Source: Rhea pennata
Lineage: Eukaryota > Chordata > Aves > Rheiformes > Rheidae
Direction: 5' to 3'
Assembly: GCF_028389875.1 (NCBI RefSeq)
Contig: NW_026907676.1
Coordinates: 444,001 to 508,000, forward strand
Length of the DNA: 64,000 nucleotides
Program-made: the position numbers and the translations under genes
In this document: positions 7,171-60,576 of the stretch, one piece after another
Layout: each line of letters opens with the position of its first letter
Numbering within the stretch: the first letter of the stretch is position 1
Notes under the pieces: model-generated
Database searches by the model: none
Seen by the model: the letters and a program-made list of their open reading frames with translations, nothing else
Told to the model about the DNA's origin: nothing

Positions 7171-7179
7171 TCCTCATCC

Positions 7180-8199: not shown

Positions 8200-10600
8200 C
8201 TTTTATCCAGTGTCTGTGTGCTGCAGAAAACTCTGCCTCATCAAAACCCCAGGGGGCTGCTGAGCTTTTTCTCCAAGATGTGGATGTTATCTCTGAGGGG
8301 TGGTAAGTCCTAAGAGTCCCCTAGCTGCTGCCATAGCTGGTCGTGTGCCCTGTGTATCCCTGATGTATAGCTGCATGTTGGGTGGCAACCCTCTGTGAGG
8401 TGAGGAGCGGGCATGTGGTGTGTCAGAGTGGTGGGGTACTTTGTGGTGGGCGCAGACGATACCCCGGTGTCTTGGTGCTCATCACAGGAGGAGGTGTCTG
8501 GAGAGAGCAGTGGTGTGTGGGGGGAAGTGCTGCAAGCTGGGGAGATGAGGAGCACTGCAAGATGACTGAGCTCTCAGGGCCCAGGCTGCCCTGGTGCTGT
8601 GAGCCAGAGATGCTGACAGTCTGCTGCCTTCTGCCAGCTGAGGTTCAGGCCTTGTGTTTCCTCAGCTCTTGCCAGGATGTGCCAGGATGTGCTGTCTAAA
8701 GTCTGGGGAGTGTTTCTGCTTGCTCTGAAGTGTGAACCAAGACTGCTTTTTCTCTTTCTGCTCACTTTTCTTCATGAGAGCTTTCCCCTGCAGCAGTGTT
8801 TGCTGAGGGAGGAGAGGGCCATGTGTGTTACTCATTGCTGGCTGGCCGTTAGTGTGATGGAAGCTCTTTGGAAGAGTGAAGGCTTTGTGGAGAGGGTTTC
8901 TTTGTACAGGGGCTGGTGTGTTCCTGGGAGATGAACTGAACGGAGCTTTTCCCTTGCTGTGCCAGATCTCCCTAGACAAGGAGTCCCTTTGAGTAGGCAA
9001 GCCAAGGAGGAGTGCACTGAAATGCCTGCATGCCTCCGATCTCTCTTCCTCCCAGTTCCAGTATCTCTAATTTCCCCCACCATCCTATTGTAGCGTGACC
9101 TGTCTGTGCTGCACCAGGGACTCAAGAGAGCAACCCAGATGCAGGCCTGAGGGTGTAGGTGTGGTGTCGTTACGCGCTGACACTGCTGACATGGGCAAGG
9201 TGCTGTTTTTTTCTCCTGAGCCTTGAGTGGATGTGAGGAGCCCCACTTAGCTCTAAATGCATTGCTGCAAGTAGCTGGAGCCAAGGGAGTGGTGGTGAGC
9301 ACAGCCACCCTCGAAGGAGGATGCTGGCTTTTGGGCAGTTGTTGAGGACCTTGTGTGCTTGAAGTCCTTGAGTCTTGGGGGGCAAATGTTTTCTAAGAGA
9401 GGAAGGAGAAGTGGTCCTTGCTCCAGCCTGCCTCCTTGTGCTGGTTTAGAGGAGAGTTCCTTGCACTAAAAATGTGGACAAAGAAGCTTGGCTCTCCCAT
9501 ACCCCAGCTCCTTCAGTGGGTGACTTTGCTCGCACTCTCAGACTCTCTCTGTACTGTGCCGTGTGGTGCACTGAAGGCCAAGGCTTTGCTGGCTTTTCCA
9601 AGTGCCATGTGCAATGCTGAAATCTCCTGGATTGGCTTAAGACTTTGCTTGGGAGAAAAATCGCAGCCCTTGCTGAGACGGGAGAAGCAAACGCTTGAGA
9701 GCAGTGGAAGCCTTGGTCCATTTTCCTTGTTGGAAGCCTGCTTGTGTAAGAGTGGTGCACTGGCCTTGTGTGTGCTGGTCCCTGTGTGACCATATGGTCA
9801 TTTGAGAGCCCCCTGAGCAAGCCTCTTGAGAGGGCGAGTGGTACCAGAGAGTTTCAGCCTCCTCCACTGAAGCTGCAAAGGGCCTGTCACTAGGACATCA
9901 GCATGGATGAGTGCGTTGAGGGCATGTGAGGCAAAAGCGAGAGGGAAGAGCTGGCCTGCTGAGCCCCTGGGAGAGCACTGCCTGTCTGCTTCGTCGAGGT
10001 GGTAAGTTAACAGGTGCAGAGCTCTGCCTGGCTGTTGAGAGGAAGTGCCTGTTGGCAAGGCCTTGCAGGATTAGAAGCAAATGGAAGGCATGGATCGCTG
10101 GCTTTGAGGACTGTGTGGGTTACCTGGCTGCTGCCACGTGTTGTCCTGTCCCTTGTGTGTCCCTGCTGCAGAGGTCCTTCTTGGGGATGTGATGTGGGGA
10201 TTGTTGGTGCCTGTGTTTCCTCCTTGGAGCATCCTCGTATAACGCAAGGATGCTTGCTGTTTGCTAGTTCCTTGATGACTTTCTGTTGAATCTGGACCCT
10301 CATTCATCTTCCCACCCCATACACTAAGCCATTCCAGTCCCTCAGAGAGATGGGGAGTTACTCAAAGGAATCAGAGCCATTTCTCCACTTTGTACCTGTC
10401 CAAAGCCTTGCAGACAGTGGAGATGCCGCTTCACAGAATGTCAGGCCTCTCAGGGTGATGGGTAGCTCTGAGGTGCCTGTCTTGGTCAGCAGTGGAAGTG
10501 GCCACTCCAAAACCACTGGTTTCTTCCAAATACAGTCTCAGACTAGCAGATGTATTGAGCCTGCGATGGTGGGGACCTGTGGAGGTGGGGGTCCAACAGC
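8200..10600. other. Unit A 3' part, no gene recognised
   Basis: Shared with D (50150-52200) and in part with C (34190-35570). Open frames are short and differ between copies. A segment of about 640 bases within 9500-10160 is absent from D. No coding domain is recognised. Confidence 0.5.
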
Positions 10601-17321: not shown

Positions 17322-18279
17322 CTATGAGCTCTGGGTGCAGACCAGAGCTTTCCTCACTGCTTTCCTCAGGGTCTCCCTGACCTCCCTGTTGCGCAGGCTG
17401 TAGATGAGGGGATTGACCAGGGGCGTGAGGACAGTGTAGGAAAAGGAGAAGACTTTGTTGAGCTGTCTGAGTCTGGGGGTTCTGGGCAGCATGTAGACAA
17501 TGATGACGGTGCCATAGAAAACAGTGACGACAGTGAGGTGAGAGGAGCAGGTACAGAAGGCCTTCTGCCTGCCCACGCTGGATGGGATCCTCAGGATGGT
17601 AGCTATGATGCACATGTAGGAGGCCACTGTGAACAGGAAGGGGAAGACTAAATCCAAAAAAGATAGGAAGAAAGTTACAATTATAACCACACTGGTGTCA
17701 CTGCAGGTGAGCTCCAGCAATGGTTTAAAATCACAAAAGAAGTGGTCAATGACCTTGGGGCCACAGAACTTCAACTCAGATATGAAAGAAATAACTACTG
17801 TGGAGATTAGCAATCCCACCAGCCAAGATGCTGCTGCCAGCTGCAGTGAGAACTTCTGCATCATGAGGCTTGCATAGAGCAGGGGCTGGCATATGGCCAA
17901 GTACCGATCGTAGGACATTACTGCCAGTAGGAAACACTCGGTAACCACAAAAGAGGCGAAAAAATAGAATTGTGCAATGCAGCCCCTAGCAGATATGGTC
18001 CTGTCCCCAGTCAGGAAGCTGGCCAGCAGCTGGGGCAGGATGGTGGAGCTGTAGGAGATCTCCAAGGAGGAGAGATTTCCCAAGGAGGAAGTACATGGGT
18101 GTGTGCAGGTGCCAGTCTGCCACCACCAACACAACAATGAGGATGTTCCCAGCCACCGTTATCAAATAGACCATGAGCAAGAGGAGAAAGAGTGGTGTCT
18201 GGAGTGAGGGGACATTCCTCATTCCAAGCAGGACAAACTCCGCTGACGATGTGCAATTCTCCCATTCCCCTTTCTCCAT
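17322..18279 (-). pseudogene. Olfactory receptor, class II, frameshifted
   Basis: Single-exon odorant receptor (seven-transmembrane GPCR) on the minus strand. The start is taken at MEKGEWENCTSS, which aligns with the starts of the other two minus-strand receptors. Visible: an N-terminal NCT glycosylation sequon, TM1 with GN, PMYF at the start of TM2, the TM3 cysteine (ISARGC), MSYDRY at the end of TM3, three EC2 cysteines (FCGP, FFCD, LTCSD), KAFCTCSSHL in TM6, and NPLIY in TM7. One extra base in the run at 18076-18078 (TTT on the plus strand) shifts the frame between TM2 motifs, splitting it into 17986-18300 and 17322-18137. Everything else is intact, so this could be a young pseudogene or a one-base assembly error. 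Subfamily: non-OR14. I cannot name it with confidence. Confidence 0.9.
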
Positions 18280-19054: not shown

Positions 19055-20155
19055 AGGTTCCCCCCTCAGCAATGGTTTTGGAGGGCTTTGGGGCTGCCTT
19101 ATGGCATAGTCCAGCAGCTAGACCTCAGCACTGCCAGCTGTGCTCACAGGGCTCCCCGAGCAGCACTGCTAGGAGAAGGAGTGGGTGTCTCCATGGTGAG
19201 CATAGGTGAGATCAGGAAAGAGCTTCATTCCCCTCCTGTTTGTGGTGAATGCCTGGGATATGCCTGTGTGCACAGCCAGGGAAAGTCCCTGCCTGAGAAG
19301 CATAGGCCTCTGCCCGGATCTTATCTCCCAGGTGAGGTAGTGGTGCCCCTTGGCAGGGCTCTGGGCTGGCTCAGGGCCAGCAACCCATCTAACTCCGCAC
19401 CCATCAGCAAGCTCCCCAGGATTCTGTTCAGCTAACAAGGGCATCACAAGATATGTGTGGAGGGAAGAGGGAGCTAGAGTAGAAGACATCCAGGAAGGAA
19501 TATGCGCATCCCCTTTCTCACTCATAGATGCCACCATGCAAAGCCTCACCACTTCACCTGCAGTCCTCAGGATGAGGTGATGACCTCTGTGCTGATAGTG
19601 CTGGGAAATGATGATCAAGGCGCAAGATGTCATCCTCTCTCTCTTCTCTAATGTGTCCTTCTCCTCTCTGAGCTCTCTGCAAACCCTGACCCAGGGATCA
19701 GGCATTGCTCTGTGCTTTCTGTCTTCCTCCAGCAGCTCTGCTAGGGAGTTTCCAGCAGCATTTGAATGCCCCGTGTTCTCCAGAGTGTCCTGGGGTTTAT
19801 AGCACTAACAAGTCTCTGAAGGTTCCTGCTGCAGCTCATCGCTCCCCAGGAACTGCAGAGAGTGAGCAATGCATAACTGGCCCTCAGAAGAGACTGAAAC
19901 CCGTTGAACTGCTAGGAACTTTGTAAACACTTCTGGCATACAGCTTTCCCCATAACTCTGGTCACTCAAATGCTGGGACTTGCCTCTTTGTAAAGGAAAC
20001 TGAGATTGCATAATCAGCAGGCCTCCTTAAAAAATCCTGACACAAAGTCAGGAGAGATCTCTTGAATGGGATTCCCCTCACCTGCCTGCAGCCAACTCTC
20101 TGTTCACTGACTCACTCAGGTTTAGAGAGCCCTGATGGCTTCAGGTGGTCCCCCA
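19055..20155. repeat. OR upstream block, copy 1
   Basis: Matches 29770-31145, which lies in the same position upstream (5') of the OR at 28010-28987. Shared landmarks: 'agctagacctcagca' / 'agctggacctcagca', the exact 'agagtgagcaatgcataact', and 'tcaggtttagagagccctga' / 'tcaggttcagagagccctga'. No coding frame is conserved. A 5' untranslated exon or promoter of the receptor could lie here, but nothing in the sequence proves it. Confidence 0.75.
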
Positions 20156-28009: not shown

Positions 28010-28987
28010 TTAAGACCCTGGCACAGCAATGTTCTGAGCTCTGGAGATGGCCAAAGCTTTTCTGAGCACTCTTCTCATGGCTTCCCTGACCTCCCTGTTC
28101 TGCAGACTGTAAATGAGGGGATTGACAAGGGGTGTGAGGACAGTGTAGAAAAAGGAGAACACTTTGTTGAGCTGCCTCAGCTGGGGGGTTCTGGGCAGTG
28201 TGTAGACAATGATGAGGGTACTGTAGAAAACAGAGACAACAGTGAGGTGTGAGGAGCAGGTGGAAAAGGCCTTTTGCTTGCCCACACTGGATGGGATCCT
28301 CCGAATGACAGCTATGATGCATGCGTAGGAAGCCAGGGTGGACAAGAAGGGGAAGACTATATCCAAGAAGCTGAATACGAAAGCAATGAGAGTGACTTTC
28401 CTAGTGTCACTGCAGGCAAGTTCCAGCAATGGAGCAAGATCACAAAAGAAGTGGTCAATGGCCTTGGAGCCACAAAACTTCAACTGGGATAAGAAAGGAG
28501 GGATTGCTGTAGAGATAAGGAAACCCATTAACCAAGATGCAGCCACCATCTGGAGACAGACCTTCCAGGTCATGATGCTTGCATAGAGCAAGGGCTGGCA
28601 TATGGCCAAGTATCGATGGTAGGACATTATGGCCAGCAGGTAACATTCGCTAGCTGCAAAAGAACCAAAGAAATAGAATTGTACAATAAAGCTTTGAACA
28701 GAGATGGTCCTGTCCCCAGTCAGGAAGCTGTCCAGCAGCCGAGGCAAGATGGTGGAGCTGTAGCAGGTCTCCAGATAGGAGAGATTGCCCAGAAAGAAGT
28801 ACATGGGAGTGTGCAGGTGCCAGTCTGCAACCACCAGTGCAACAATGAGGATATTCCCAACCACGGACACCAAGTAGACCATGAGCAAGAGGAGGAAGAG
28901 TGTTGTCTGGAGTGAGGGAATATTCCACATTCCCAGCAGGAGGAACTCCCATGATGATGTCCCATTCTCCCATCGATCTTTCTCCAT
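28010..28987 (-). CDS. Olfactory receptor, class II, open frame
   Basis: The only full-length open odorant receptor in the window, 325 residues, single exon, predicted ciliary or plasma-membrane GPCR. I chose the start MEKDRWENGTSS because it aligns with the other two minus-strand receptors. The frame is open upstream to 29158 without receptor-like sequence. Visible: NGT glycosylation sequon (residues 8-10), LLLG, TM1 with GN (44-45), LHTPMYF (58-64), EC2 cysteines (FCGS, FFCD, LACSD), KAFSTCSSHL in TM6, NPLIY in TM7 and a basic tail. Two key residues are missing. The TM3 cysteine is Phe100 (codon 28688-28690), and the DRY motif reads HRY with His124 (28616-28618). The first should break the conserved TM3-EC2 disulfide, the second the G-protein coupling switch. 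It may therefore be non-functional. The subfamily is not OR14. A closer name would need a search. Confidence 0.9.
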   Translation of the reverse strand: MEKDRWENGTSSWEFLLLGMWNIPSLQTTLFLLLLMVYLVSVVGNILIVALVVADWHLHTPMYFFLGNLSYLETCYSSTILPRLLDSFLTGDRTISVQSFIVQFYFFGSFAASECYLLAIMSYHRYLAICQPLLYASIMTWKVCLQMVAASWLMGFLISTAIPPFLSQLKFCGSKAIDHFFCDLAPLLELACSDTRKVTLIAFVFSFLDIVFPFLSTLASYACIIAVIRRIPSSVGKQKAFSTCSSHLTVVSVFYSTLIIVYTLPRTPQLRQLNKVFSFFYTVLTPLVNPLIYSLQNREVREAMRRVLRKALAISRAQNIAVPGS

Positions 28988-29156
28988 TGCCATCATACAT
29001 CTATCTTTCTTTTTCCTGCTTTCAAGAAATAGGCCTGAAAAAAGAAGAATGTTTGTTTGTACTTGATTTAAGATGAAGTAAGAATATTTTTGACAGAAGA
29101 ATAGCCATATAATCTTGCATGAAGGAAAAAACAAACAAAAAAACCACGAAAAACTC
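28988..29156. other. OR upstream sequence
   Basis: Immediate 5' flank of the receptor, AT-rich, with an open but receptor-unlike frame. No promoter motif can be called with confidence. Confidence 0.3.
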
Positions 29157-29769: not shown

Positions 29770-31145
29770 TCCTCTGTGGTGGTTCCTGAGGGTTCTAGGG
29801 CTGCCTCCCTACACACCCCAGCCCAACAGCTGGACCTCAGCACAGGCAGCTGTGCTTGCAGTGCTCCCACACAGCCCTCTGTCTGGTGCCCTTCCTGGGG
29901 TTCTCACAAAAATAGCGAGAAAATCATGTCTCTGCCATTCCCTTTCTCTCCCTTTAGACCTTTCAGTGAGTTTGGAGATGGGCAAGCAGATGCCTGGACT
30001 GTCCAGAGAACTCTGGGGATGGATGAGCCTTTTACACTCTCACTCATCTCCTAGGCTTTCCCTGGAGGCTGTATTGATGGATACCAGTAAGAGAGGTTTC
30101 CATAGTCAGCCCAGAATGACTGAGGTCCCCGGCCCTCCCCACTGCATGAGTGAGAGTCAAATGTGTGAAAGCTGAGGGATGGAGACCAAATCCTATAAGA
30201 CTAGGAGAAAGGGGAGAGGAAAAGCCCTTAATGGTTGGTGGAAGGAAGGACAAAGCATTTCTAGCCCTGAATAGCCTGCCCATCCAAGATGGACAAGTGC
30301 CCCAGGATCGGCTCCACCACACCAGCAGCCCAGCTGTAATTCAGCACCCTCAGCCCCTTCCAGGATCTCTGCTCCATGGTGCCAGGGACTCGGCAGCGTC
30401 TGGGGGGAGGAGGAAGCTGTGAGGAAGACATGCAGGAAAGGACAGGAGTGAGACTCTGGTCTCACTCACAAACTGTAACTGTGCAAAAGCCCAGCAGTAA
30501 TATAAACACCACCAAGACTTGCCTCAGGACATCCAGCGCCAGCCTGCAGTCCTCAGCATGAAGGGGTGACCTCTGCACTGATGGTGCCTGGGAATGAAGA
30601 TCGAGGTTGGGATTTCACTCTCTGCATCCCCCCCCCACCACCACCAAGTCCCTGCCTTCCCTGGACTCTGCAGACCACTGCCCAGGGCTCAGGCTTTGCC
30701 CTGATTTTTTCATCTTCTCTCAGCAGCTCCTGCAGTAAATCCCCAGCAGGACCCAAATGTCTCTGCTCTTTCGTGTGCCTTGGGATTAATAGTACTAACG
30801 AGCCTCTGGTGGTTGATCCTGCATCTTGGTTCTCCCCAGAGGCTGTAGAGAGTGAGCAATGCATAACTGGCTCCCAAAGGAGACTGAAAATTCTGGACTC
30901 TGGAAACTTGTAAAGAACTCTGGCAAGGCCTGACTTTACACATAACTCCTGGTCATTTTAATTCTCATTCATGCCCCTTTGAAAAGGAACTGGAGGCTGG
31001 GCAGCCACCAGTACTACATAAAGTTCATGAAACAAAGTCATTAGAGGTCCCATAAATGGGATTCTCCTCACTTCCCTGCAGACAACTGTCTTTTCACTGA
31101 CTCGCTCAGGTTCAGAGAGCCCTGACAGCTTGGGCTGGTCCCTCC
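29770..31145. repeat. OR upstream block, copy 2
   Basis: Counterpart of 19055-20155 (see that entry for landmarks). It is somewhat longer, because about 250 bases around 30200-30530 have no clear match in copy 1. Contains a C-rich tract at about 30630-30650. No conserved coding frame. Confidence 0.75.
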
Positions 31146-31959: not shown

Positions 31960-33510
31960 GAAAGCTGGGCAAAATTAATGGGAAAGGGAAAAATTATCCA
32001 GATTTGCCACTTGGACTCTCCCAGGGCTTTGGAGACTGGCAAAGACCAGGGTCCCAGATAAAGCCCTCTAGATGATGTGTCTTAAGGGTTGCTCTTTTGG
32101 GGCATATCATCTCTATCTTAAGCACTGTAGACCAAGAAACCTTGCTGAGGACTTTAAAAAAACTAAGAACCTACTTTGGTGCCTCAAGGAGGAAGGCTGC
32201 GTTCTGTCCCATGCTGTCCTACATCCTTCTTCTACAAAAAGGGTGGTCCACAGCAGCTATCAGTTTTGAGGCTCCTGAAAGCATCTCAGCCCATGGCCAG
32301 GCTCTGTGCTGTTTCATTTCACATTGATCATGTCTTTGAAAAATCCCAACCCCCAATCCATCCCCCATACTGCAGCTACCCACACAGCTCTGCCCAGTGC
32401 AGAGACCTGTCGGTGCAGGGGGTGCAGACTGACCTCTTCAATGCCTCATTTGAAATATTTCACATTTTTTTCACTGTCTTGAAGGATTTATCAGCAAGTT
32501 TTGGAAAATAACTGGGATGAGGGGAGGTGACTGCTTTCCAGGGTGTGAGTGGAAGGATCTCTGCTCTTGCCCTGGCTATACCATCTACATGGTGGTGACC
32601 TACTGAGCTCCCAGAAGACATGAGCTGAGGTCACAATAGGATGTGCTGCATCACAGGGAGCTCTTCCTGGTGCCACGGCAGAACTCTCATTTCCCTAAAA
32701 GACCTGGGCACTGCTGGGCACTTCTCATGCGCTTCCCACCATTGCCCTTAGGAGCTGCTCCACAGTGAGGAGTGGGGATGGGAGATACTGGGGCCACGCT
32801 GGGGCTGTTCCCTCACAGACAGAGGCACAGGGACCTCTTGAAGACAAGTTTTGGGTGATGAGGCGGGAAGAGCGTACTATTTCCCTGGATGAAAAGGTGA
32901 GCTGAGAGCAAGGGAGTAAGCAAGATAGAAGGCTGCTGGACCAAGACCATTAGCCTGGACTGCTGTTCCTTGTTCCCAATGGTCCTGAGGCTATTCACCA
33001 AGCATAAGAGCTTTGAGAGCTCCTTCCCAAGGTGTCACACAAAGACACAAGAGCCCTACCTGAGGGTCCTATCTGGCTCCAGGGACAATGTGGCAGGCAG
33101 AACTCCTGGGTCCTGTGGCTGAGGCTGCCCTGAGCCCCAGCTCTATCCACTAATGTCAGGGAGCAATGCTGGCTCAGGTTTTCCCAGGTATAGGTCTCCC
33201 TTTGGGATCTGACTCTGGCAGGAAATGCAGCCTCTGTCTTGGAGGCTGGTGTGTCCTGCAACTCCCATGGGGCTCTTAAGAGCCTGCTGGAAATGCTCAT
33301 ATAGGAAATGGATCCTTTGCCTTGTAATAAATCCAAGAGTTCTACTGATTTAGAAGAACCTCTGCTCCTTCTTCCTGGATCCTCTTCTGCTTCCAACCTG
33401 GCAGAGCATGTTTTGGGCTCAGAGATTTTGTTCTCAGATGGCCACAGCCCCCGCCCTCCTGCAGAAGGGGGACAAACCTCTGCACCCAAAAGACAGCCTG
33501 TTTGTCCTGC
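31960..33510. repeat. Right arm of large inverted repeat, unit C
   Basis: Equivalent to 5815-7170 but longer at the outer end. 33345-33495 is the reverse complement of D's 45018-45165 (shared 'gtgcagaggtttg', 'ggctgtggccatctg', 'aaaacatgctctg'), a part missing from A's left arm and D's right arm. The original arms were therefore about 1.6 kb. There is no left arm in this unit's normal position. A partial one stands at 37521-38063. Confidence 0.75.
32648..33190 (+). repeat. 543-bp inverted repeat, left copy
   Basis: Its reverse complement is 37521-38063 (the coordinates of matched bases sum to 70711). Both copies encode the same 62-residue open frame without a single difference, and only a few substitutions are visible elsewhere. 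It is far closer to its partner than the arms of the older inverted repeat are to each other. Confidence 0.92.
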
Positions 33511-34166: not shown

Positions 34167-34189
34167 GCTGGACAAGCAGTGTCTGTGTG

Positions 34190-35570
34190 CTGCAGAAAAC
34201 TCTGCCCCATCAAAACACCAGGGGGCTGCTGAGAATTTTCTCCAAGATCTGGATGATATGTCTGAGGGTTGATATGTCCTGAGGGTCCCCTAGCTGCAGC
34301 CATGGCTGGTCGTATGCCCTGTGTCCCTGATGTATAGCTGCATGTTATCTGTCAACCCTCTGTGAGGTGAAGAGCGGGCATGTGGTGTATCAGAGTGGTG
34401 GGGTACCTTGTGGTGGGGACAGATGATACCCAAGTGTCCTGGTGCTCACCACAGAAGGAGGTGCCTGGAAAGAGCAGTGCTGTGTGTGGGCAGTGCTGCC
34501 AAGCTGCGGAGAAAATGAATACTCTGAGATGAAGAGCTAACTTGGCTTGCAGGGCCCAGACTGCCCAGGTGGTGTGAGCCAGAGATGCTGGGAGCCTGCT
34601 GCCTTGTGTGTGATGAGGTTCAGGCCTTGTGTTTCCTCAGCTCTTGCCAGGATGTGCAGGCAGGATGCTGCCTAAAGGGCAGGGAGTGTTTCTGCTTACT
34701 CTGAGGTGTGAACCAAGGCTGCTTTTTCCCTTTCTGCTCGCTTGCTTTTCTTCACGAGAGCTTTCCCTTGCAGCAGTGTTTGCTGAGGGATAGGGGAGTG
34801 TGAGCATTTCTCATTGCTGGCTGGGCGTTAGTGTGCTGGAAGCTCCTTGGAGGAGTGAAAGCTCTGTGGAGAGAGGGTCTTTGTATACGGGTAAGTATGT
34901 TCCTAGGAGATGAATTGGAAGGTGCTGCTCCCTTGCTGTGCCAGATCTCCCTAGGCAAGGAGTCCCTTTGAGTAGGCGAGCCAAGCAAGAGTGCCCTGCG
35001 AGGGCTGCACCTCTCCTCCTCCCAGCTGCAGTCTCTGAATTCTCCCATCATCCTGCTGTCTGCACTGCAGCAGGGACACAAGAGAGCAGCCCACATGCAG
35101 GCAGGAGTGTGCTAGGTGTGGTGTTGTTAGGTGCTGCCACTGCTGACATGGGCAAGGTACTGTTTTCTCTCCGGAGCCTTGGATGGATGTGAGGAGCCCC
35201 ACTTAGCTCTAGATGCATTGCTGCAAGTAGCTGGAGCCAAGGGAGTGGTGGTGAGCACAGCCGTCGTCCAAGGAAGTTGCCATCTTTTGGGCAGGCATTG
35301 AGGACCTTGTGTGCTTGAAGCCCTTGACCCTTGGTGTTTTCTGCCTGAGCACTTTTAGAGTTGCCCCTCCTTTTTTGAGGGGAGAGTCCCAGAGCTCTTG
35401 CAGTGTAACCACTCTTGTTTTCGATCTCGTCCCTGCTGAGGCCTGAGGGGATAGTCTCCCTGCAGTGCTGAGAAGTCAGGGTGCCCATGAGGGGAGCCCT
35501 GAGGGTCAAATACTTTGTAAGAGAGGAAAGAGAAATGGTCCTTCCTCCAGTCTGCCCCCTCATGCCAGTT
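34190..35570. other. Unit C 3' part, no gene
   Basis: Same non-coding sequence as 8216-9440 (A) and 50160-51545 (D). No conserved frame or domain. Confidence 0.45.
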
Positions 35571-35574
35571 TAGA

Positions 35575-35720
35575 GCATACCCAGCTCTTCCAGCCTCTCC
35601 TTATCTGCCCCATGCTTAACCCCCTGACCGTTTTAGTGTCCTTGTGCTGGACTTCCTCCTGTGTGTCAGTGCCTTTCAGGAACTGGAAAGCTCAGACAAG
35701 ACCAAGCATCCAAAAAAAGA
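35575..35720 (-). mobile_element. Old CR1 fragment
   Basis: Short reverse-strand CR1 piece ('catacccagctcttccagcc', 'cttatctgccccatgc'). It is left after the 803-base deletion removed its start relative to D. Confidence 0.6.
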
Positions 35721-37520
35721 GTCTTAGTTTTGCCAAAACCAGGAGTCCAGTCTCTCCATGGCCTGGCTGTCTGTGCTCTGATGATTGTTCGGTTCAATAC
35801 AGAGGGGAGACATTTGCCCTGGGCTGCTGTGAGTATGTTAGGTCAGCAGAACTGATGATAACCCTCCAATTCTTTCTTTCTAGGTTCCTCCACTCATGTA
35901 GGCTCCCAGTGCAGTGCTAGTGCCCACATGGCTGGTGGGAGGATGCCAGGGTACATCGCTGTAGCTGTCAACATCTTTACCAAGATCATGACCCTCTGAA
36001 AGCAGCTGCAAGTGACTGAGGTGAGGCTACATATGGATGCGAAGGCTCCCCTCAATGCACCTGGCTTCCATGGGTGACAGGGTGTGAGTTCACCTCCTGG
36101 TACCTCTGCTCTCCTTCTGCTTCCTCATGTCACAAATGCTATTACTACTGGCCTGCTCAGCAAATGCTATTGTGCCCCTCCTTTCCTATGGGGCTATAAA
36201 ATGGCCAGTAAGATGAATTAAAGACTCTCTTCTTAAAGTGCAGCATGTCTTGAAGGCCTATGTCTAAGTGCCTGAAAGCCTCCTGTGTGTGAGCTGAGGA
36301 AGTCTCGCAGTGCTTGGGCTTCTCACCCTGCAAGGGATGAAGATGTGCCCAGTGCCAGGCAGCAGGTGGCACTAAGACATCAGCCAGTGCCCCACGAGTA
36401 CAGGTACAGAGCCAGGTCTCCTGCTCCAGAGCCTGTGCCCCCAGGGCAGCTGGCATTTCAGCAGACCTCCAGTCTGGGGTGGTCTCATTGCTTGGGTCTC
36501 AGTTCAAAGACTCTGCACCCTTTCTCCCTTCACAGAGCCTCCCTGCCCAACTGATGAAAGGAAAGGGACAGAGGTTGCTTTGGGCTCAGGAGACCTGCAG
36601 GACCTCCAAGCATTTCTGAATTGTGTCTGTAACTTCAGCATTAGAAAACAAATCCCCTAACCATTGTCCCCAGGTGGAGGTTCATGGCATGGTGGGGTCC
36701 AGGGACGAGGCAGCAGCCTGCTGTGCCCACAGGGAGCAGCATCCTTCCCTCTGAAAGCAGCAGCATTGCCCAAGGAGCCAGCTGTGGCCCTGGTCTTATG
36801 CTTAGGTTTTTCCACATGCCTTGTGAGCCCAGAGTGCCTTGGCCACCTTCTGGTGTCACCACAAGAACTTCTGTGTGTGTCTGGGCTGAGTAGCCAAGGG
36901 AAGGCAGTGAGCAGAGCAGTGCCTGGGGAGTGTGCAAGTGGTGAGTGTCCTGCATCCTGAAGGGAATGGCTCTGGGGATTTGTCCTGCCTGTGGCTTTGG
37001 TGTGGTGATCCAGAGAGCTGTGCAGACAGGCAGACTCATGGCTGTTTCTGACGGATGACCAGTTGTCTTTAAGTTCCTGTTGATTTTTCCTGCCTTGAGG
37101 ACACACCCTGGGAAACTGCTAGTCCCCTCCCGCTGCATAGACCTGTCCCAACGGCTCTTGTGTCTGGAGGGAGTTTGTTGCTAGCATTTTACGGAAGCTG
37201 CTCTGTTCCCCCTCTCCTGCTCTTTCTGAAGAGAGGGAGAGGAAGCAACAGCCGTATGGTTGCAGGTGGGAGAAAGCCTCACTTGTCTCCCATGGGAGCA
37301 ACCAGTGGGCTGCTCACCTTCCCCACTGGGGAGAAGTGGTGAGAGTCATGAAACCCAAGACACATGTTTGTAAGCAGTGGTTCCCAGGAGAGCTGGGAGC
37401 ACAGATGTCCCACTGTTATCTCTGAAGTACAAATAAAGAGTTTAAGACATGCAGTCACATCTGGCCATTCCAGCGTGTCTGACTTCCCTGAGTACTTCAT
37501 ACACTAGCAGGAGGTGGCTA

Positions 37521-38063
37521 TGCCCGGGAAAACCTGAACCAGCATTGCTCCCTGACATTAGTGGATAGAGCTGGGGCTCAGGGCAACCTCAGCCACAGGA
37601 CCCAGGAGTTCTGCCTGCCACATTGTCCCTGGAGCCAGATAGGACCCTCAGGTAGGGCTCTTGTGTCTTTGTGTGACACCTTGGGAAGGAGCTCTCAAAG
37701 CTCTTATGCTTGGTGAATAGCCTCAGGACCATTGGGAACAAGGAACAGCAGTCCAGGCTAATGGTCTTGGTCCAGCAGCCTTCTATCTTGCTTACTCCCT
37801 TGCTCTCAGCTCACCTTTTCATCCAGGGAAATAGTACGCTCTTCCCGCCTCATCACCCAAAACTTGTCTTCAAGAGGTCCCTGTGCCTCTGTCTGTGAGG
37901 GAACAGCCCCAGCGTGGCCCCAGTATCTCCCATCCCCACTCCTCACTGTGGAGCAGCTCCTAAGGGCAATGGTGGGAAGCGCATGAGAAGTGCCCAGCAG
38001 TGCCCAGGTCTTTTAGGGAAATGAGAGTTCTGCTTTGGCACCAGGAAGAGCTCCCTGTGATGC
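37521..38063 (-). repeat. 543-bp inverted repeat, right copy
   Basis: Reverse complement of 32648-33190. It interrupts the C/D homology exactly at 37521 and ends at 38063, where unrelated sequence starts. It corresponds in orientation to the left arm of the large inverted repeat, but is derived from unit C's own right arm. Confidence 0.92.
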
Positions 38064-39876
38064 TCCCTTGCCCATCCGGGCTATGCCCCACTTCTACTCC
38101 AGCCCAGGGCCTTCTAAACGGGCATGCAATGCCCAGATTGTGTCATCTGAATGAAAACCTGAACCAAGGGTAATGAGCTCCCTTCTTGTCCCCATCTAGG
38201 TGTCCTACCTATTTAAGACATGGGAATATAGATATCCGGGGGTGGGATTTTTCCACCTCTTGTAGATAACCATCCTCTGATGAAACAACTGACAAAGCTG
38301 TAACTGGTCTCTCTGTGTTGTTTAGAGAGGGACAAAAGGTGATTAGTTTGCTTTATCTCCGTGAACATTTCCCAGGGGGGAGGGAGCCCAAAGGATAGAA
38401 GAAGTCATACCTTCAGCTGGGCCCCTGCCCTTGAGCAGAGCCAGGCTTCAGGGACAGAGGGGGCTGATGGCAAACTGGCAGCACAGCTCTGTGCAGCATT
38501 AGATCCTCTGCAAAGAGCAGCAGGGCTGTGGGCACTGCCTCCTGCTGCTGATGTGAGATGAGACATGACAGAGAGAAGTGAACGGTTGTGTTGAGTGTGA
38601 GGACAGAGGAGAGCTCCTTGTAGGAGAAATCTTCACAGCCCTTGACACAGTAAGTCTCTGGCTGCAGGGCAATGCTGTGGAGGCTCCTGGAAGGGTCTCC
38701 TAAACCTTTCACATCCCTCAAGTATCACTCTCCTTTGTAGAGGAGGGCAAGATTCTTCAGAGTAGCGATCCCCTGCCACACTGCCAGAGCGTAGGGCATG
38801 CTGCTACTTTCTCCCAAGGACGGCTGCAGGGCTGTGAAGCTGGAATATGCACCCAGGTGTGTCCAGAGCTGTGATTCAGAGCAGTGTCCTTGCACTGCAG
38901 AGGAAGGTGAAGAAAAGGCTACAGAAAAGGGAAGGAGCTTTCCTTCCAGGTCTTTCAGTTTCCTAATACTGAGAGGAAGAAAAAGGGAAAGTGTTTCCTC
39001 TTTTGTCAAGAAACTAGGATTCACAAATCTTCACTCTCAGAGATCAACAGCTCTGAAAGATCATCAAAGCCCTTCAACTCCCCTTCCCCCTACAGCAGCA
39101 CCAGCAGCATCTTTATGGACTTCTCAGGGCTTTTGTGACCTACTCCTTAGGACCTGCATGCACAGAGATGCCCTTGGACAGTGCCCAGTCCTGAGAGGTT
39201 TATGTAGGGCAGAACTGAGCATACACAGGGTGTGACAGGGTCTGTGAGCACTGACAGGGAAAAAATGTTGGGACAGAGGGAGCTCCAGGCAGCAGGAACA
39301 GCTGCAGAATGAAAGGGAACTGCGAACAGAATCATCATGGGAGGATGGATTTGGCCAAGTGAAGGTCAGTCCCTCTGATGCAGACACCTTCCTCTGAGCA
39401 AGCCTCCAGTTTCTCCCCTCCCACTCGGAAGAGTCCCTGCCCTGACAGCCACAGGGTCCAGGGTATAAGCCCCCTCCTCTGCAGCCAGACCTCTGGCAGA
39501 GGAGAGGGGATCTCTCTTGCCACGAGCCCATCTCACGCTGCCCCACAAAGGGGCGGAGATCTGCCCTGAAATGTCATCATCAGTGAGGTGGCATACCCAG
39601 CTGGGCAAATCCCTGAAACTCATTTCTGTAACCATCATTCTTGAGAAGTGATGTGAAGATGCTGAAAAGCCCTGCCACAAGACGAGTGGATTTCATTTGA
39701 CAGAAACTGTGAGTGTCAGAGCTACTCACAAATAAAGAGATGCAATGTCAGATTTTTAATAAGAAATGTAAAATTTTATTAATTTCTTTTTATTTGTTTT
39801 GTTTTTTTTTTAAGTCTCTCCTAAATTGTCCCTATCTTTTTCTCCTTGAATTGTTCCCCATGGCCAGTGGGAAATA
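38064..39876. other. Upstream flank of OR14-like locus, nothing recognised
   Basis: Frames of 100-145 codons occur on both strands without known motifs. A T-rich tract (about 39785-39815) ends shortly before the receptor. No match to the upstream side of the OR14-like locus at 59780 was found. Confidence 0.4.
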
Positions 39877-40825
39877 ATGTCCAACGGCAGCTCCTTCAAT
39901 GAGTTCCTTCTCCTGGCATTCGCAGACACATGGGACCTGCAGCTCTTGCACTTCTCGTTCTTCCTGAGCACCTACCTGGCTGCCCTCCTGGGCAACGGCC
40001 TCATCATCACAGCAGTAACCTGCAGCCACCACCTGCACACCCCCATGTACTTCTTCCTCCTCAGTCTCTCTGTTCTGGACATTGGTGCCATCTCTGTAAC
40101 TGTCCCCAAATCAATGGTCAATTCCCTGTGGGACACCAGAGGCATTTCCTACTTGGGATGTGCTGCTCAAGTCTTTTTCTTTATTTTCTTATGTTCAACA
40201 GAGTATTCTCACAGTCATGGCCTATGACTGCTACATCGGCATCTGCAGACCCTTGCACTACAACATAATCATGGGCAGCAGAGCTTGTGTCAAAATGGCA
40301 GCAGCTGCCTGGGCCAGTGGTTTTCTCAATGCAGCCCTGCACACTGCCAACACATTTTCCATACCTCTCTGCCAAGGAAACACAGGGGACCAGTTCTTCT
40401 GTGAGATCGCTCAGATCCTCAGGCTCTCCTGCTCAGACTCCTGCCTTACAGAAGTTGGGCTTATTGTGATTACTGCCTGTTTAGGCTGAGGGTGTTTCAT
40501 TTTCATCATGGTGTCCTACGTGCAGGTCTTCACTGCTGTGCTGAGGATGCCCTCTGAGCAGGGCCGGCACAAAGCCTTTTCCATGTGCCTCCTGCACCTG
40601 TCTGCGGTCTCCCTGTTTGTCAGCACAATATTTTTTGCTTACCTGAAGCCGCCTTCCCTCTCCTCCCCAGCTCTGGATCTGGTAGTGGCTGTTCTGTACA
40701 TGGTGGTGCCTCCAACAGTGAACCCCCTCATCTACAGCATGAGGAACAAGGAGCTCATTGAGGAAACTCATCCAATGGGTACAAGGTCAGCACCAATAAC
40801 TGGCCCACGTGCATTCACTCACTAG
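39877..40825 (+). pseudogene. OR14-like olfactory receptor pseudogene
   Basis: Odorant receptor of the avian gamma-c (OR14-like) type. It opens with MSNGSSFNEFLLLAFADT, followed by TM1 LLGNGLIITA, LHTPMYFFLL in TM2, SYLGCAAQVF in TM3 (cysteine present), an EC2 with FFCEI, KAFSMCLLHL in TM6 and NPLIYSMRNKEL in TM7. Lesions: a 5-base deletion near 40207, before the DRY region (the other plus-strand copy has gtcttcttacag where this has tctcacag); DRY changed to DCY (Arg to Cys, 40229-40231); an in-frame TGA at 40487-40489 at the end of TM5; and about 8 bases lost in the C-terminal tail near 40757. Not translatable as a receptor. It is followed by the 3' flank that leads into unit D. Confidence 0.92.
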
Positions 40826-41242: not shown

Positions 41243-44200
41243 ACATTCCTGTTCATTAGCTTAAGAAGCAGAGAAGAAGGTGGTAACATCATTATCATGT
41301 CATTTCCGTCTCATTATTCATTTAAGGGTGTGTAGTTTAGTATGTTAATAAGCCTTAATGAACTTCTAGGTTACTCTGGGTTGTTCTGCTGTTTTTGTCT
41401 TGTCGACTCCTCACATTCTTCAAAATCTTGTGGTTTTCTCAAGGTTATTCGGCTGGAGTTCGTTGCACTTTGCAAGACTGTTTTACGAGAGCCTCTCTCC
41501 CTTGTCCTTGAGTCTTGTTAAGTATTTGAGGGTTTCATCAGTATAACTCTAACAGAGGAGCCTCACAGCTTGCAAGGCTGAGCTCGCTTGGATGCCCCCA
41601 GTGCAATGAGAGGAGTTTCCCTTTGCAGTGTCTCTTGGTAGTGACACCAAGGGAGCTCAGGGGCCCAGAGTCAGGCTCAGATAAATACCAATGAGGTGAG
41701 ACCATGGGTCCTGTGTCCATTAGGAGAGCTCAGCTCCCCTGGCCACAGTCAGGGTGTGATCTCACATCCCTCTCCTGTGAGGCTGGCAGCCAGCTGTCAC
41801 CGTGGGCTGCTCCCTTCCCTCTACAGAGCTCCAACACTCAAAGCAGAGCAGGAATGAAGGGGAGGAGAATCTGCTCGAAGTCTCTGCGAACAGACCTTCT
41901 GCTGCACAGCACCATTCCCAAACTGTCACAGCAGGCCTTTCCTCACAGCAATCTTTGCAGGGGGGCTGCAACTTTCTTGGAGAAACATCCACCAAAAGAA
42001 GCAGGAGTTTTTCTTTTTAGGCCTTTTCTCCTCTTTTCCACACTGTTCTGCTCCGTTCTCATATGTGTATATGGCCTAAGTCCTCTTGTAACATGGTGCT
42101 TCTGTGTGCATTTCTGTGAGCTCAGACAGGAGCAGGCCCTGAGGACCCTCACAGCATACCTGGCTTCCACAATATAATTTCCATAATAAAAGGGGATCTC
42201 CTCTGTGATGTACCTGTAGTCTGGTCTTTCTTCAGAAGACAGAGTCAAAAATATTCTCATGGGAATGCACCATTAAGGAATCTGGCATTCTCCTTGTGAA
42301 CATAGCATATGGGGGGTGAGCTCAGAGTCCCAATGTGATCTGTTAGGGACTGAGGGTTGGATTCAGGGCTCATCTCTGAGTGACCAGTGCTGGTGGACTG
42401 ATCCACCAGCCTCCGCCACCCTGGGGCACTGCGGGGAGCACAGGGCAGGGGTGCAGGAATGGCCAGGCCAGCATGGATACTCTGACCAGGAGAAAGCTTC
42501 TCTGGGGAGCAGAGACGTCACAGCAAAATAGCAGGGCAGTATTCAGAGACAGGAAAAAAGAGGGAGAGCTTGATTCCTCTGTGTATCACCTCAGGGCAGG
42601 CAGCGCTGTTTCCGGGGCAGCAGGAACTGCCGGAGGTGCCGCAAGGCCAGGGCTTTCATGCTGTTCACAGCAGCAAGGTGGGCATGGAGGGGCTTCAGGC
42701 AGACAGGGAGGAGGATCTGCCGGGCACAAGAACAAGGGAGACAGTGACAGGCCTCACTGCAGGACCTCATCCCCCTTGATGTGGAGCTGCTGCCCTTTTC
42801 CATGGGCCTGGCCTGAGTAACGCTGTGGGGCTTAGCTGTGCCTGGCCCTGCACCTCGCAAGTCCTGACCTGACCCTGTCCTTGTCCTGCTGACCTAATTC
42901 CTCATCTCTACCTCGGCCCTGTCACCTCACTACAGTCTAGAAAGCCTTGGCCAGGAAAACTGCAACCCAAGCATGACACAGAGAACGTTGTGGGTATAAA
43001 AGTGACTGTATCCATGCAGTAACTCTTGCCTGACAGCCAATGTAAAGATGTGAGGAGAATTTCAGATTTGGCCCCCTACTCAGGTAACATTGAACAGAGA
43101 CTCTTCAGTGGATGGAAAAGCAAGGGCAACTGCCTGGGCCTGATTATACGATGAAAAGTCAGGAGAGAAGGTCCTTCTCTGATACCACTCACCTACTTAT
43201 GAACCATTTGGGACAGGGTTCCTCCAACAGAGAAGGTGCTGTTGGGAGCAGCAGGAGTGAGGCTGCTCCATGCGGGAAGGGGAGCCAGGAGTCAAGGGTG
43301 CTGGCAAGGCAGTCAGGGAAGTGACCCACTGTCCCACACTGCCTGGACAAGAGGAGCAGAGCAGGTTTGGGGCTAATAATTGGCATCAGGTACAGTCCAG
43401 CGATGGCCAGATAGGACTGGAGGGCTCCACTCAGCCCTGCTTTGTGTGGGAGGTCAGACTGGAGACCTCCAGAGGTCTCTTCCCATCAAAACTCTTCTGC
43501 AATTCCATGAATTCTTGCTCCTCTGTCTCTGCATCAGCATGGGTGGCAGGGGGAGGAAAGCACCTAGGGCAGAGCAGACCGAGTCTGCTGGGAGAGTGTT
43601 GAGGGAAGATCCAAAGGTCCCGGGCTCAGACCTGGGCTTTGGAAAACTCCCTTACACTCCTGCTCCCAGAGGCTCTGTCTGCCTCTTCCACACTCCATGT
43701 GTTCTCCTCCTGTAGGCTAAGGTGGAGTCCAGGATTGCCTGGGGACTCTCTTCCCCATGGAGAGAAGAGAGAGGGCCTTCACCAGCCCCACACTGCCTTT
43801 TCCACCGCCAGCCTTTGCACTTGCATGTGCCTAGGTCTGCTCTGTCCCCACAGTCACAGCTACACTGGAGCCCATGAAAATTCTGATGCTGCTGTCCTCA
43901 AGCAGGGATCTACCCCGCAGCTGGGGCCTGGCCAGCTACAAAGACATCAGCTGTTGAGTGTCCCAGCCATGCAGCTGAGGGCAGGGGTCTTCACCCCAAT
44001 TTCCCTGCTCCTGCCTCTCCTCTCACCACCACCGCTGCTGTGCCCAAGTCAAGCCCTCCTGCCTGCAGACTACCTTGGGGCCTGAGGCAACTCCAGCTCC
44101 CTCCAGGGATGTGCTGGAGACTTTCAGGAGCAGCCTGAGGTGGAACTGGCACCATCAGGGTGGACTGGGACAGGGCAGCTCCCCTCTGTCATGCTGCAGC

Positions 44201-44999
44201 TGGGGCTGAGGTGGGGCTGGGAACAGCATTTCCCTGGGGAGCTCCTGCAGGAACTGCTGTCGGGGATCCTCCACATCTGTCCTGCCACCAGCACCAGCAC
44301 TCAGGGTGTGAGGGTGGAAGCGCACAGAGGATGGAAGGTAGCCAGGCTGCCTAGGGGGAGCATCAAGATTCTGTCTGTGCATGCAAGGATGGAGTGAGGA
44401 AAGCCAGAGCTCAGCTGGAGCTGCCACCAGAGACCTCATACACGGAAAGGGCTGGAGTATTATCAAATGACTCTTAAATGACCCTCCAGAGTCTGGAGGG
44501 GGACGGGGGTCTGAGCATCCAGCCCTTGCCCATCCTGGGCTATGCCCCACACGGGGGTCAGCAGAGAGCTGTACTCCAGGATTTTCTGGGAATAGAGGGG
44601 CCTTGCAAGGCTGGTATTTTCCCCTCTGTCAGGATACAGAGACCCTTTGTGGGGCTGGTCTAGGACGATGGCCCTGTGGCAGCTCCCCCAGTGTGTCCAT
44701 ACAACACAGGGAACACCCTGGGCTCTTCTCTCTTGCACCTTCCATGTCCTGGTGCCTTTCCCAGGACACCTACATTTGCCCCACAAGCACACAGCTCTGT
44801 GCTCCCACACTGCCCATTCACACACAGTAGCTGAATGGCAGCATTTTTCCTCTCCCATGACCGTGTGTGCTTGTGCCAGGCTCAGCTATTTGGTGTGCAT
44901 CTCTTGGGGAAGGTAGCAGGCCGGGGAGGTTGCTAGAGATGGTGGACCTGTGGAGGACCTATGACATGGGGATGGCACTTCCATCTGTTTCCAAGCTGC

Positions 45000-46580
45000 C
45001 CTTGCAAACAGACTTTTTGGTGCAGAGGTTTGACCCCCTTTTGCAGGAGGACAGGGGCTGTGGCCATCTGGGGACAACATCTCTGAGACCAAAACATGCT
45101 CTGACAAGTTGGAAGCATAAAAGGATCCAAGGGGAAGGAGTACTGGTTCTCCTAAAGAAGTAGACACATATAGCCCCACAGGATCTGCAGGACACCCCAG
45201 CTTCCAGGACACAGGACACATTTCCTGTCAGAGCCAATTCCCAAATGGGGACTCACACCCAGGGAACACTGGCCTTGGATAGCCTCCTACCATGAGAGGA
45301 TGGAGCTGGCCCCACAGGAGCCTTGGGGCTCAGGGCAGCCCCACCCCTGGGACTCAGGAGGCTGGGCTGCCCCAGGGTTGTCCCCTGAGCCAGATGGGAC
45401 CCTCAGGCAGGGCTCTTGTGGCAGCCCCCACACTGTCCAGCCACCCTCACAGCCCAGGATCCACAGCCGTTGTTGTAGTTCACAGTCTTTATACAACACC
45501 TCAGGAAGGAGCTCCCAAAGCCTTTATCCTTGCTGGAGAGGTGCAGGAGCCTTGGGAAAAAGGAAATGGAATGCAAGTAGATGGTATCAGTCCAGGAGGC
45601 CTCCATCTGCCTTGCTTCCTTGCTCTCATCTTTCTCTCCATCCAGGGAGCAAGGATGGTCTTCCTGTCTTTTCAGCCCAAAATTCTCTCCAACATGTCCC
45701 TTGTTCATCTGCCTGTTGATGAGCAATATCAACGTGACCTTGTTTCCTTCTGTACCTGCTCCTTCCCATGGACCAGCTCTGAAGGGCAGTGGTGGAGTGT
45801 GACAGCAATGCCCAGCAGCACCCAGGGCTCACAGGGAAGTGAGGACACTGCTGTGGCATGGGAGAGACCACTCTGTGATATGTCATGTCCCACTGTGACC
45901 TCAGTTCATGTCACGTGGGGCCTCAGTAGGTCATCGCCATGGAGATGGCACAGCCAGGGAGAGAGCAGAGAGATTTCCCATCATGTTCTGGAAAGGAATC
46001 ACGTCCCCTCATCTAAGTTATTTTCCCAAAAAATCTGATAAATCCTTCAGGAACATCACCAGATGATGCCAAAAGCTGTGAAATATTTAAAATGAGGCAC
46101 TGGAGAGGTCACTTTTGTGCTCCTGACCTGACTGGTCTGCACTGGGTAGACCTGTGCAGGAATCTGGGCTTTGGGGGCTGGATTGAGGCTTGGCATTTTT
46201 CAAAGACCAGGATCAAAGTCATGTGGCATGCCGCATGACAGCATAAAGTGTGACCAGGTGCTGAGATGCCTTGGTGAACCTCAACACTGGTTTCTCCTGT
46301 GGGTGGCTGTTCTGTGTAGAATAAAAGGATGCAGGTCAATATGGGACAGGGTGCAAGCTTTGTCCTTGTTTTTAAAAGTGCTCAGCAAAGTTTCTTCATC
46401 CGCGGTGCTTGAGAGGGAGAGGAGATGCCAGAAAAGAGCAAACGTGCCCTTAATACACATCATTCACAGGGCTTTATCTGGGTCCCTGGTCCATGCCAGT
46501 CTCCAAAGCCATGGGGGAGACTAGGAAGCAAATCCGAGGAAATTTTCCCCTTTCCTGCCCAGCTTTCCTTCTGCTTGCGT
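45000..46580. repeat. Left arm of large inverted repeat, unit D
   Basis: Near-identical to A's 3272-4530 and extended outward by the 135-base block (45018-45165) that A lacks. It pairs with 47835-49170, and its outer block pairs with C's 33345-33495. A 248-codon frame (45292-46038) is open here, with 7 codons more than in A and no recognised domain. Confidence 0.8.
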
Positions 46581-49170: not shown

Positions 49171-49189
49171 CCTGGGGCTCCTCAGCCCT

Positions 49190-52275: not shown

Positions 52276-52279
52276 GTCC

Positions 52280-57887: not shown

Positions 57888-58927
57888 TCAAGGCCGCACA
57901 CTTCTAAAGAGATCTTGCAGTACACAGTACTTGGCTTTGTAGAAGTTAGAAGTTGTTTGTGCCCATGTCAACTGGCATGAGCCCTGGGTACCACCCAAAT
58001 CTTTCCTGAGTGCTTTCCTCAGGGCCTTCCTGAGCTCCTTGCTCTGCAGACTGTAGGTGAGGGGATGGACCAGGGTGGTGAGGATGGTGTAGAAGGAGAA
58101 CACCTTGTTGAGCTGTCTGAGTCTGGAGGTTCTGGGCAGCATGTGGACAATGATGAGGGTGCCATAGAAAACAGTGACGACAGTGAGGTTCGAGGAGCAG
58201 GTGGAGAAGGCCTTCTGCATGCCCATGCTGGAGGGGATCCTCAGGATGGCAATTATGATGGACACGTAGGAGGCCAGCGTGATCAGGAAGGGGAAGACTG
58301 AATCCAGGAGAGTCAGGATGAAAGTTACTATTTTAACTACACTGGTGTCAGTGCAGGCGAGCTCCAGCAAAGGAGTAAAATCAGAGAAGAAGTTGTCAGT
58401 TGCAGCAGGGCCACAGAACTTTAACCTTGATAAGAAGACAGTGGCTACTATAGAAAAGACCAAACCCCCAGCCAAGACCCAGCTGCCATCAGGAGACAAA
58501 CCTTCCAGGTCATGAGGCTTGCATAGAGCAGGGGCTGGCGTATGGCCAAGTACCGATCATAGGACATGGATGCCAGCAGGAAACATTCTGTAACTGCAAA
58601 ACCAATGAAGAAATAGAGCTGAGTCATACAACCCTGAGCAGAGATAGTCCTGTCCCCAGTCAGGAAGCTGGCCAACAGCTGGGGCAGGATGGTGGAGCTG
58701 CAGCAGGTCTCTACAAAGGACAGATTGCCCAAGAATAAGTACATGGAGCTGTGCAGATGCCGGTCTGCCACCACCAGCACAACAATGAGGCTGTTCCCAA
58801 CCACGGTCACCAAGTAGATCAGGAGCAAGAGTAGGAAGAGTGGTATATGGAGTGAGGGGATGTTCCCCATTCCCAGCAGGAGGAACTCACTTGATGATGT
58901 GCAGTTATTCCCTTTCTCTTTCTCCAT
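57888..58927 (-). pseudogene. Olfactory receptor, class II, frameshifted
   Basis: Third member of the minus-strand receptor subfamily. Start MEKEKGNNCTSS with an NCT sequon, LLLG, TM1 with GN, TM3 cysteine (ISAQGC), and MSYDRY. A missing base in the C5 run at 58465-58469 (plus strand) breaks the frame in TM4, giving 58448-58927 and 57888-58499. Further decay: PMYF in TM2 is SMYL, the EC2 FFC cysteine is Ser (NFFSDF), and NPxxY in TM7 reads HPLTY. The C-terminal tail is longer than in the relatives. The single-base loss in a homopolymer could be an assembly error, but the motif losses argue for a real pseudogene. Its start faces the OR14-like locus at 59780 about 850 bases away. Confidence 0.9.
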
Positions 58928-59695: not shown

Positions 59696-59779
59696 GATGG
59701 GCAAAGAGACGTCAGGCTCAGGAGCCTCAGGAGCTGGCCACTCCAAGGACAGAGGAGAGGGGACAGAGGTTCCAGGCTA

Positions 59780-60576
59780 TGGCCTGCAACTACCACCTCC
59801 ACACCCCTATGTACTCCTTCCTCCTCAACCTCTCCCTCCTTGACCTTGTCACTGTCTCCACCACTATCCCCAAATCCATCACCAATTCCCTGTGGGACAG
59901 CAAGTCCATTTCTTACTGGGGATCTGCTGCACAAGTCTTTCTACTTGTCTTCTTGTTAGGAGGAGAGTATTGTCTTCTTACAGTCATGGCCTATGATCGC
60001 TATGTTGCCATCTGCAGACCCCTGTGCTTTGGGACCCTCATGAGCAGCAGAGCTTGTGTCAAAATGGCAGCAGCTGCCTGGGTCACTGCTCTTCTCTACT
60101 CTGTGCTGCAAACTGCCAACACATTTTCAATAACATTGTGCCAAGGCAACAGATGGACCAGTTCTTCTGCAAGATTCCCCACATCCTCAAGCTCTCCTGC
60201 TCACACTCCTACCTCAGGGAAGCTGGGCTTATTGTGGTTAGTGCCTGTTTGTTTTTTGTGTTTTATATTTTCATCGTGCTGTCCTACGTGCAGATTTTCA
60301 CTGCTGTGCTGAGGATCCCCTCTGAGCAGGGCCAGCACAAAGCCTTTTCCATGTGCCTCCCGCACCTGGCTGTGATCTCCCTATTTGTCAGCACTGCATT
60401 TTTTTGCTTACATGAAGCCCCCCTCCATCTCCTCCCCAGCTCCGGCTCTGGTGGTGGCTGTTCTGAACTCAGTGATGCCTCCAGCAGTGAACTCCCTCAT
60501 CTACAGCATGAGGAACAAGGAACTCAAGGATGCACTGAGGAAACTGGTTCAATGGCTCCAATGGCAGCACCAATAA
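59780..60576 (+). pseudogene. OR14-like olfactory receptor pseudogene, 5'-truncated
   Basis: Receptor homology starts abruptly at CNYHLHTPMYSFLLNLS (first intracellular loop/TM2). The N-terminus and TM1 are gone and replaced by unrelated sequence. TM3 has MAYDRYVAICRPL, with DRY intact, but the TM3 cysteine is Ser (YWGSAAQVF). A one-base deletion near 60152 shifts the frame in EC2, just before the MDQFFCKI block. A one-base insertion in the T run 60399-60405 shifts it again before TM7, where NSLIYSMRNKELKDAL is kept with NPLIY changed to NSLIY. Closest relative in the window is the locus at 39877-40825. Dead gene. Its 3' flank leads into unit E. Confidence 0.92.

Follow-up and report, generated by a model that had tools for sequence, protein, structure and literature searches.

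Olfactory receptors (ORs) almost always keep both the cysteine of TM3 and the aspartate of the DRY motif, and the silencing of receptor genes is an ordinary event in this family. A full-length open OR frame of Rhea pennata in which both residues are missing raises the question of whether such a frame still encodes a working receptor and, if it does not, how long ago the function was lost. The frame lies in a 64-kb window (the whole stretch of DNA analysed, 64,000 nucleotides). Five OR loci were located in it by tblastn, with two consensus ORs and the focal protein as queries. Three of them, copies A, B and C, are on the minus strand and loci D and E on the plus strand; copy B is the focal gene. 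It had been described as the only open OR frame, and within the window this is correct, the other four OR loci being broken. The preliminary description had also taken it for a cryptic pseudogene. The losses behind that proposal are real, private to copy B among the three copies and located at sensitive sites, but a long-standing pseudogene is rejected by a branch omega of 0.30, by core sites that changed less than others and by the open frame. In our judgment copy B is probably a formerly selected OR, most likely silenced recently by missense change.

Reading frame and family of copy B

Copy B occupies positions 28010..28987 on the minus strand and is read from 28987 to 28010, with an N-terminal start of MEKDRWENGTSS. 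The coding sequence is one exon without a break, a 978-base open frame of 325 codons and a stop, and Pfam PF13853 (7tm_4) matched residues 36-309 of 325 with 168.9 bits (cut-off 27), in agreement with the earlier claim of a full-length open OR frame. By tblastn, the protein is about 50% identical to consensus OR6, and among the matches listed its top solved relatives were bmOR6A2 (E 4.8e-96) and consensus OR6 (E 5e-95), which align with residues 8-315 (PDB 9le0, 9ldv). No stop or frameshift occurs inside TM1-TM7, and the sole shift relative to both A and C is beyond codon 312. Arg125, Tyr126, NPLIY, FSTCSSH, an NGT sequon and the ECL2 cysteines C172, C182 and C192 are kept, all three of the latter having been recognized before. 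Judged by its sequence, copy B is an OR by descent, despite the missing TM3 cysteine and DRY aspartate, and both losses would bear on function. Searches for relatives of the focal protein in a collection of viral contigs and in one of genome contigs, neither of them a collection of vertebrate genomes, gave 20 and 70 pattern matches, respectively, with 0 confirmed in either.

Conserved residues lost from copy B

At the TM3 cysteine site, codon 100 of copy B (28688..28690, minus strand), which we take to be BW 3.25, reads TTT (Phe). The DRY aspartate at codon 124 (28616..28618, minus strand), presumably BW 3.49, is replaced by histidine (CAT), and the motif reads HRY. Cysteine and aspartate stand at these two sites in copies A and C and in four of four consensus ORs. 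The contrasts first reported, TTT against TGC in copy A at codon 100 and His against Asp in both paralogues at codon 124, were found again, with TGT in copy C at the former and GAT in both copies at the latter. The same two residues are present in all five alignments with solved ORs (221 sequences matched, 60 listed, five aligned).

Further changes accompany these two. Sequence alignment places Ser (AGC) at codon 99 (28691..28693, minus strand) in place of a conserved Gly, next to the Cys100 site, and alignment with the copies identifies Arg (CGG) for a conserved Leu at codon 229 (28301..28303, minus strand), presumably near the TM5/ICL3 end, and Ser (AGT) for a conserved Gly at codon 256 (28220..28222, minus strand), in what we take to be the FYG stretch of TM6. 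The N-terminal Cys9 common to A and C is Gly in copy B. Past codon 312 copy B is one base shorter than A and C, which shifts its final 13 residues into a frame other than theirs; by alignment and frames, the resulting tail of 13 codons and stop spans 28010..28051 (minus strand), the stop being codon 326. This indel is probably tolerated, being at the far C-terminal tail.

The distance from the TTT to the CAT codon is 72 bases, and a single transversion separates either one from its counterpart in copy C (TGT to TTT, GAT to CAT). In view of this spacing, of the single transversions and of a frame otherwise intact, sequencing or assembly error at codons 100 and 124 is regarded here as highly improbable. 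CpG decay seems an unlikely origin of Phe100 and His124, both changes being transversions if the ancestor had the TGT and GAT of copy C.

According to the available excerpt of one account of class A receptors, more than 80% of them have the TM3-ECL2 disulfide, and replacing the cysteine on its ECL2 side is linked with a loss of function (PMC7866472). Without Cys100 there would be no TM3-ECL2 disulfide in copy B and Cys182 would be left without its usual partner, and general GPCR knowledge suggests that a protein lacking this bond would probably be misfolded or retained in the ER. Loss of Asp124 would in addition disturb the DRY switch, and on the same grounds any receptor that did reach the surface would probably couple poorly or abnormally to G protein. 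Since the losses are real, private to copy B and situated at folding and G-protein-coupling sites, the earlier verdict of probable inactivity is reasonable. Mutants of the M71 cysteines proved uninformative as evidence, because in the portion of the source available unmutated M71 also fails to reach the surface in the assay (PMC4626375). A literature search for the OR disulfide by residue number found nothing, and in a search for the HRY motif the term was absent among the matches listed.

A rival explanation is that copy B is a live receptor of unusual chemistry, folding without the TM3-ECL2 disulfide by means of the remaining ECL2 cysteine pair and signalling through an HRY switch, in which case its basal activity might be raised. 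The intact NPLIY, FSTCSSH and ECL2 cysteines fit this idea, as does the open frame. The lost sites, however, are kept in five of five aligned solved ORs (from the 221 sequences matched) as well as in A and C, Cys182 would lack its usual partner, three more non-conservative core changes (G99S, L229R and G256S) and a shifted C-terminal tail are present, and the other four OR loci of the window are broken. We regard a live receptor of this kind as unlikely, and return below to the evidence from selection that speaks for it.

Decay of the neighbouring OR loci

Copy A (17322..18279, minus strand) is an OR pseudogene with a 1-base insertion at codon 66 that keeps Cys100 (TGC), DRY (Asp124 GAT) and the three ECL2 cysteines; its stop is preserved in neither B nor C. 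Copy C (57969..58927, minus strand), likewise an OR pseudogene, is frameshifted by the loss of one base at codon 154 and lacks three further bases at codons 279-280. It keeps Cys100 (TGT), Asp124 (GAT) and DRY, and carries C130R and, at the ECL2 partner cysteine, C182S. Opposite halves of the same bond have gone in the two copies, Cys100 in B and Cys182 in C. The disulfide loss had been called one-sided, which is right for copy B itself but leaves out this mirror loss in copy C.

Loci D and E are more distant OR relics, which by their motifs presumably resemble the avian gamma-c group. Locus D (39859..40762, plus strand) has a frame break and a stop, with the TM3 cysteine kept and DCY in place of DRY, and locus E (59779..60564, plus strand), matched from about OR residue 50 onwards, is interrupted by frame breaks and reads GS at the TM3 Gly-Cys site (Ser for Cys), with DRY kept. 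On the evidence of these frames and motifs, the OR loci of the window are decaying as a group. Copy B belongs to a set of three old class II OR copies, in a cluster whose other members within the window have decayed.

Purifying selection on copy B

A three-branch codon model (GY94 type, F3x4, with its own omega for each branch), fitted to 311 codons with 1 to 4 masked, gave omega values of 0.30 (B), 0.32 (A) and 0.61 (C), on branches of 0.91, 0.59 and 0.54 neutral substitutions per codon, respectively. The profile 95% CI for B was 0.20-0.46. The data exclude omega = 1 on the B (p=1.2e-6) and A (p=0.0003) branches but not on the C branch (p=0.08). A single omega for all three branches was not rejected (p=0.11). 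Nei-Gojobori estimates agreed with the codon model (A-B 0.30, A-C 0.46, B-C 0.41). Between A and B, the upstream noncoding DNA is 70.5% identical over 610 columns against 81% for the coding sequence, and this lower upstream identity also points to past constraint. Averaged over its branch, copy B evolved under purifying selection during the greater part of the time since it separated from the other copies. The dN/dS check on this branch, proposed in the preliminary description, excludes omega = 1 and speaks against a pseudogene of great age.

The omega of 0.30 (CI 0.20-0.46) is an argument for the live receptor. It is the average of the B branch and blind to its latest part, and since broken copy A has a nearly equal value (0.32 vs 0.30), a low branch omega is no proof of a live copy.

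Core residues were compared at the 118 positions where four consensus ORs (OR1, OR2, OR5 and OR6) all agree, a set made for this analysis and distinct from the positions used by CORP. Departures from it number 24 in B, 22 in A and 32 in C, many of them common to all three copies. Core residues lost where both other copies keep them amount to 6/79 in B, 5/78 in A and 14/87 in C, the six private to copy B being G99S, C100F, D124H, L229R, G256S and L304M. At sites where A and C agree, the B branch changed at 8/92 core and 25/128 other positions (Fisher p=0.034, uncorrected for three tests); two of the eight core changes, Q83R and P174S, lose no consensus residue. The corresponding figures are 7/91 vs 16/119 for the A branch (Fisher p=0.26) and 17/101 vs 27/130 for the C branch (Fisher p=0.50). 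From the six losses, core omega on the B branch comes to about 0.12 by hand arithmetic, with 72% of random changes assumed to be nonsynonymous.

The number of core losses in copy B is not excessive for a live gene on so long a branch, which is a further point for the live receptor, together with the core sites having changed less often than others. The evidence on recent inactivity runs in two directions. It is supported by the losses in B, which include the disulfide cysteine, the adjacent Gly and the DRY aspartate, and by the four broken neighbours; a B omega no higher than that of A and the smaller change at core sites count against it. The case for inactivity lies in the identity of the lost residues, as read from general GPCR knowledge and the papers cited.

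Identity is uneven along the alignment, A-C reaching 0.95 in one 94-column block and B being low at columns 564-658, a pattern, seen among three sequences, that may stem from gene conversion. At 28331-28426 (codons ~188-219 of B), copy B is unusually divergent, with an identity of 0.68 to each of the other two copies, which between them reach 0.84 there. Going by the alignment, this divergence could reflect a ligand-pocket change or A/C gene conversion.

Time of a probable loss of function

How long a neutral frame would stay open was estimated with the indel/substitution ratio of five pairs of duplicated segments within the window (93-99% identity), which differ by 222 substitutions and 13 indels; 13 of the 13 indels are of frame-shifting size. 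The neutral chance of the B frame staying open is 0.42 at 1% divergence, 0.19 at 2%, 0.08 at 3%, 0.014 at 5% and 0.0002 at 10%. The B branch corresponds to about 30% neutral divergence (0.91/3), whereas past roughly 4% an intact frame becomes improbable. Taken with the omega of 0.30, this means that copy B was selected for most of its branch and that, if it is dead, it died recently.

These figures bear most directly on the possibility of a long-dead pseudogene whose frame stayed open by chance. Broken neighbours and the loss of several conserved residues would suit such a gene, but neutrality over the whole branch is rejected (p=1.2e-6), and an open frame has P=0.014 after 5% and P=0.0002 after 10% neutral divergence, against the roughly 30% of the branch. 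Under the models used, branch omega and open-frame probability, this explanation is rejected, and we give it hardly any credence.

Simulated neutral tails of 2-4% gave means of 3.3 to 6.4 core hits, with open-frame probabilities of 0.20 to 0.04. Of the tail lengths simulated, 3% gave the highest joint probability, 0.038, for an open frame combined with 5 or more core hits. A neutral tail alone therefore explains the data only moderately, and some of the six changes may predate the loss. With a codon model of two epochs, constraint followed by neutrality, the best fit assigned 0.6-29% of the B branch to a neutral tail (95% upper bound 25-45%), the values varying with the functional omega that was assumed. 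A recent loss of copy B is compatible with the data and an old loss is not. The favoured course of events would be long purifying selection on copy B followed by a recent missense loss of function, the frame being still open because there was too little time for a stop or mid-gene indel.

Another possibility is a loss that is segregating, the changes being polymorphic and an intact allele also present in the species. Human OR alleles segregate at conserved positions, according to the excerpts available (PMC1599758, PMC5630595), and a single haplotype is seen here. Several separate core losses in one haplotype nevertheless make a single recent allele less likely, and we consider a segregating loss quite improbable.

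Comparison with known receptors

Open-frame OR pseudogenes of the kind predicted by CORP resemble the most probable state of copy B, a recently silenced gene, in having a full frame, core losses and an inactivity inferred from missense changes alone (PMC1599758). In the available part of that study, 98/384 open human ORs were predicted to be non-functional by core missense changes, a number which its authors extrapolated to about 135, and the conserved OR core includes the DRY arginine (PMC1599758). CORP was built on mammals and its score derives from 60 positions, a SIFT matrix and weights, whereas copy B was judged by branch constraint instead. ORs that keep an open frame but have been inactivated by missense changes form a recognized category, and copy B is a further example among OR relics, unless it is shown to work. 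In a survey of birds and reptiles, the criteria for an intact gene, as given in the excerpt available, were length, start codon, seven TM domains and no stops or frameshifts (PMC2758906). Copy B may serve as a worked example of how open-frame counts can overstate the working OR repertoire.

For the altered DRY motif, the closest parallels are the mouse M71(RDY) and MOR23(RDY) receptors, in which, as in copy B, DRY is altered in an otherwise intact OR. The accessible text reports that M71(RDY) receptors do not signal and that their neurons stay immature and dwindle (PMC4967819). Asp and Arg are exchanged in the RDY receptors, whereas in copy B Asp alone is changed and the disulfide cysteine is lost in addition (PMC4967819). 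Human dRy (Arg) alleles are also DRY missense changes and are argued, in the part of the source at hand, to disrupt or drastically alter function; their hotspot is a CpG-rich Arg codon, while copy B keeps Arg and changes Asp (PMC5630595). In shearwaters, MAYDRYVAIC and the EC1/EC2 cysteines are conserved among the 17 full-length gamma-c ORs, as far as the excerpt goes (PMC6969042). From the solved class II ORs bmOR6A2 and consensus OR6, copy B differs in having Phe at the TM3 Cys site, His in place of the DRY Asp and Ser for both Gly99 and Gly256.

Removing the contacts of the acidic residue at the DRY Asp site is expected to give constitutive activity in class A receptors, as stated in the available portion of one paper (PMC3610872). 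That a live, selected OR folds and signals here without the TM3-ECL2 disulfide and with HRY for DRY, being possibly constitutively active or having a non-odorant role, would nonetheless appear rather improbable from the sequence. If the receptor does work, the need for the TM3-ECL2 disulfide and the DRY Asp in ORs would be put in question.

Flanks and duplications of the window

The 70.5% match pairs 30543..31142, upstream of B, with 19557-20152, upstream of A, and a second A-B match nearer the start covers 169 columns at 69%. Comparison of the upstream DNA of A with C and of B with C gave no match of note. The alignments suggest that the A/B duplication took in upstream DNA; the A-B upstream matches rule out, as a general feature, that the homology of every pair breaks off right at the start codon.

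Long direct duplications link 1-9378 with 41243-51311 and 34177-37533 with 50157-54310. Some of the duplicated pieces are 97-98% identical and others 89-93%, so that younger and older segmental duplications form a patchwork here. A Pfam scan of three other ORFs in the repeated segments matched no family. An inverted repeat of 546 bases pairs 32648-33193 with 38063-37518 at 98.9% identity, the copies being about 4.3 kb apart, and an imperfect tandem array at 54596-54846 has a period of 65 and about 3.8 copies. At 29035-29049 on the minus strand, 47 bases before the start of copy B, a pyrimidine-rich run ending in CAG looks, by eye, like a splice acceptor.
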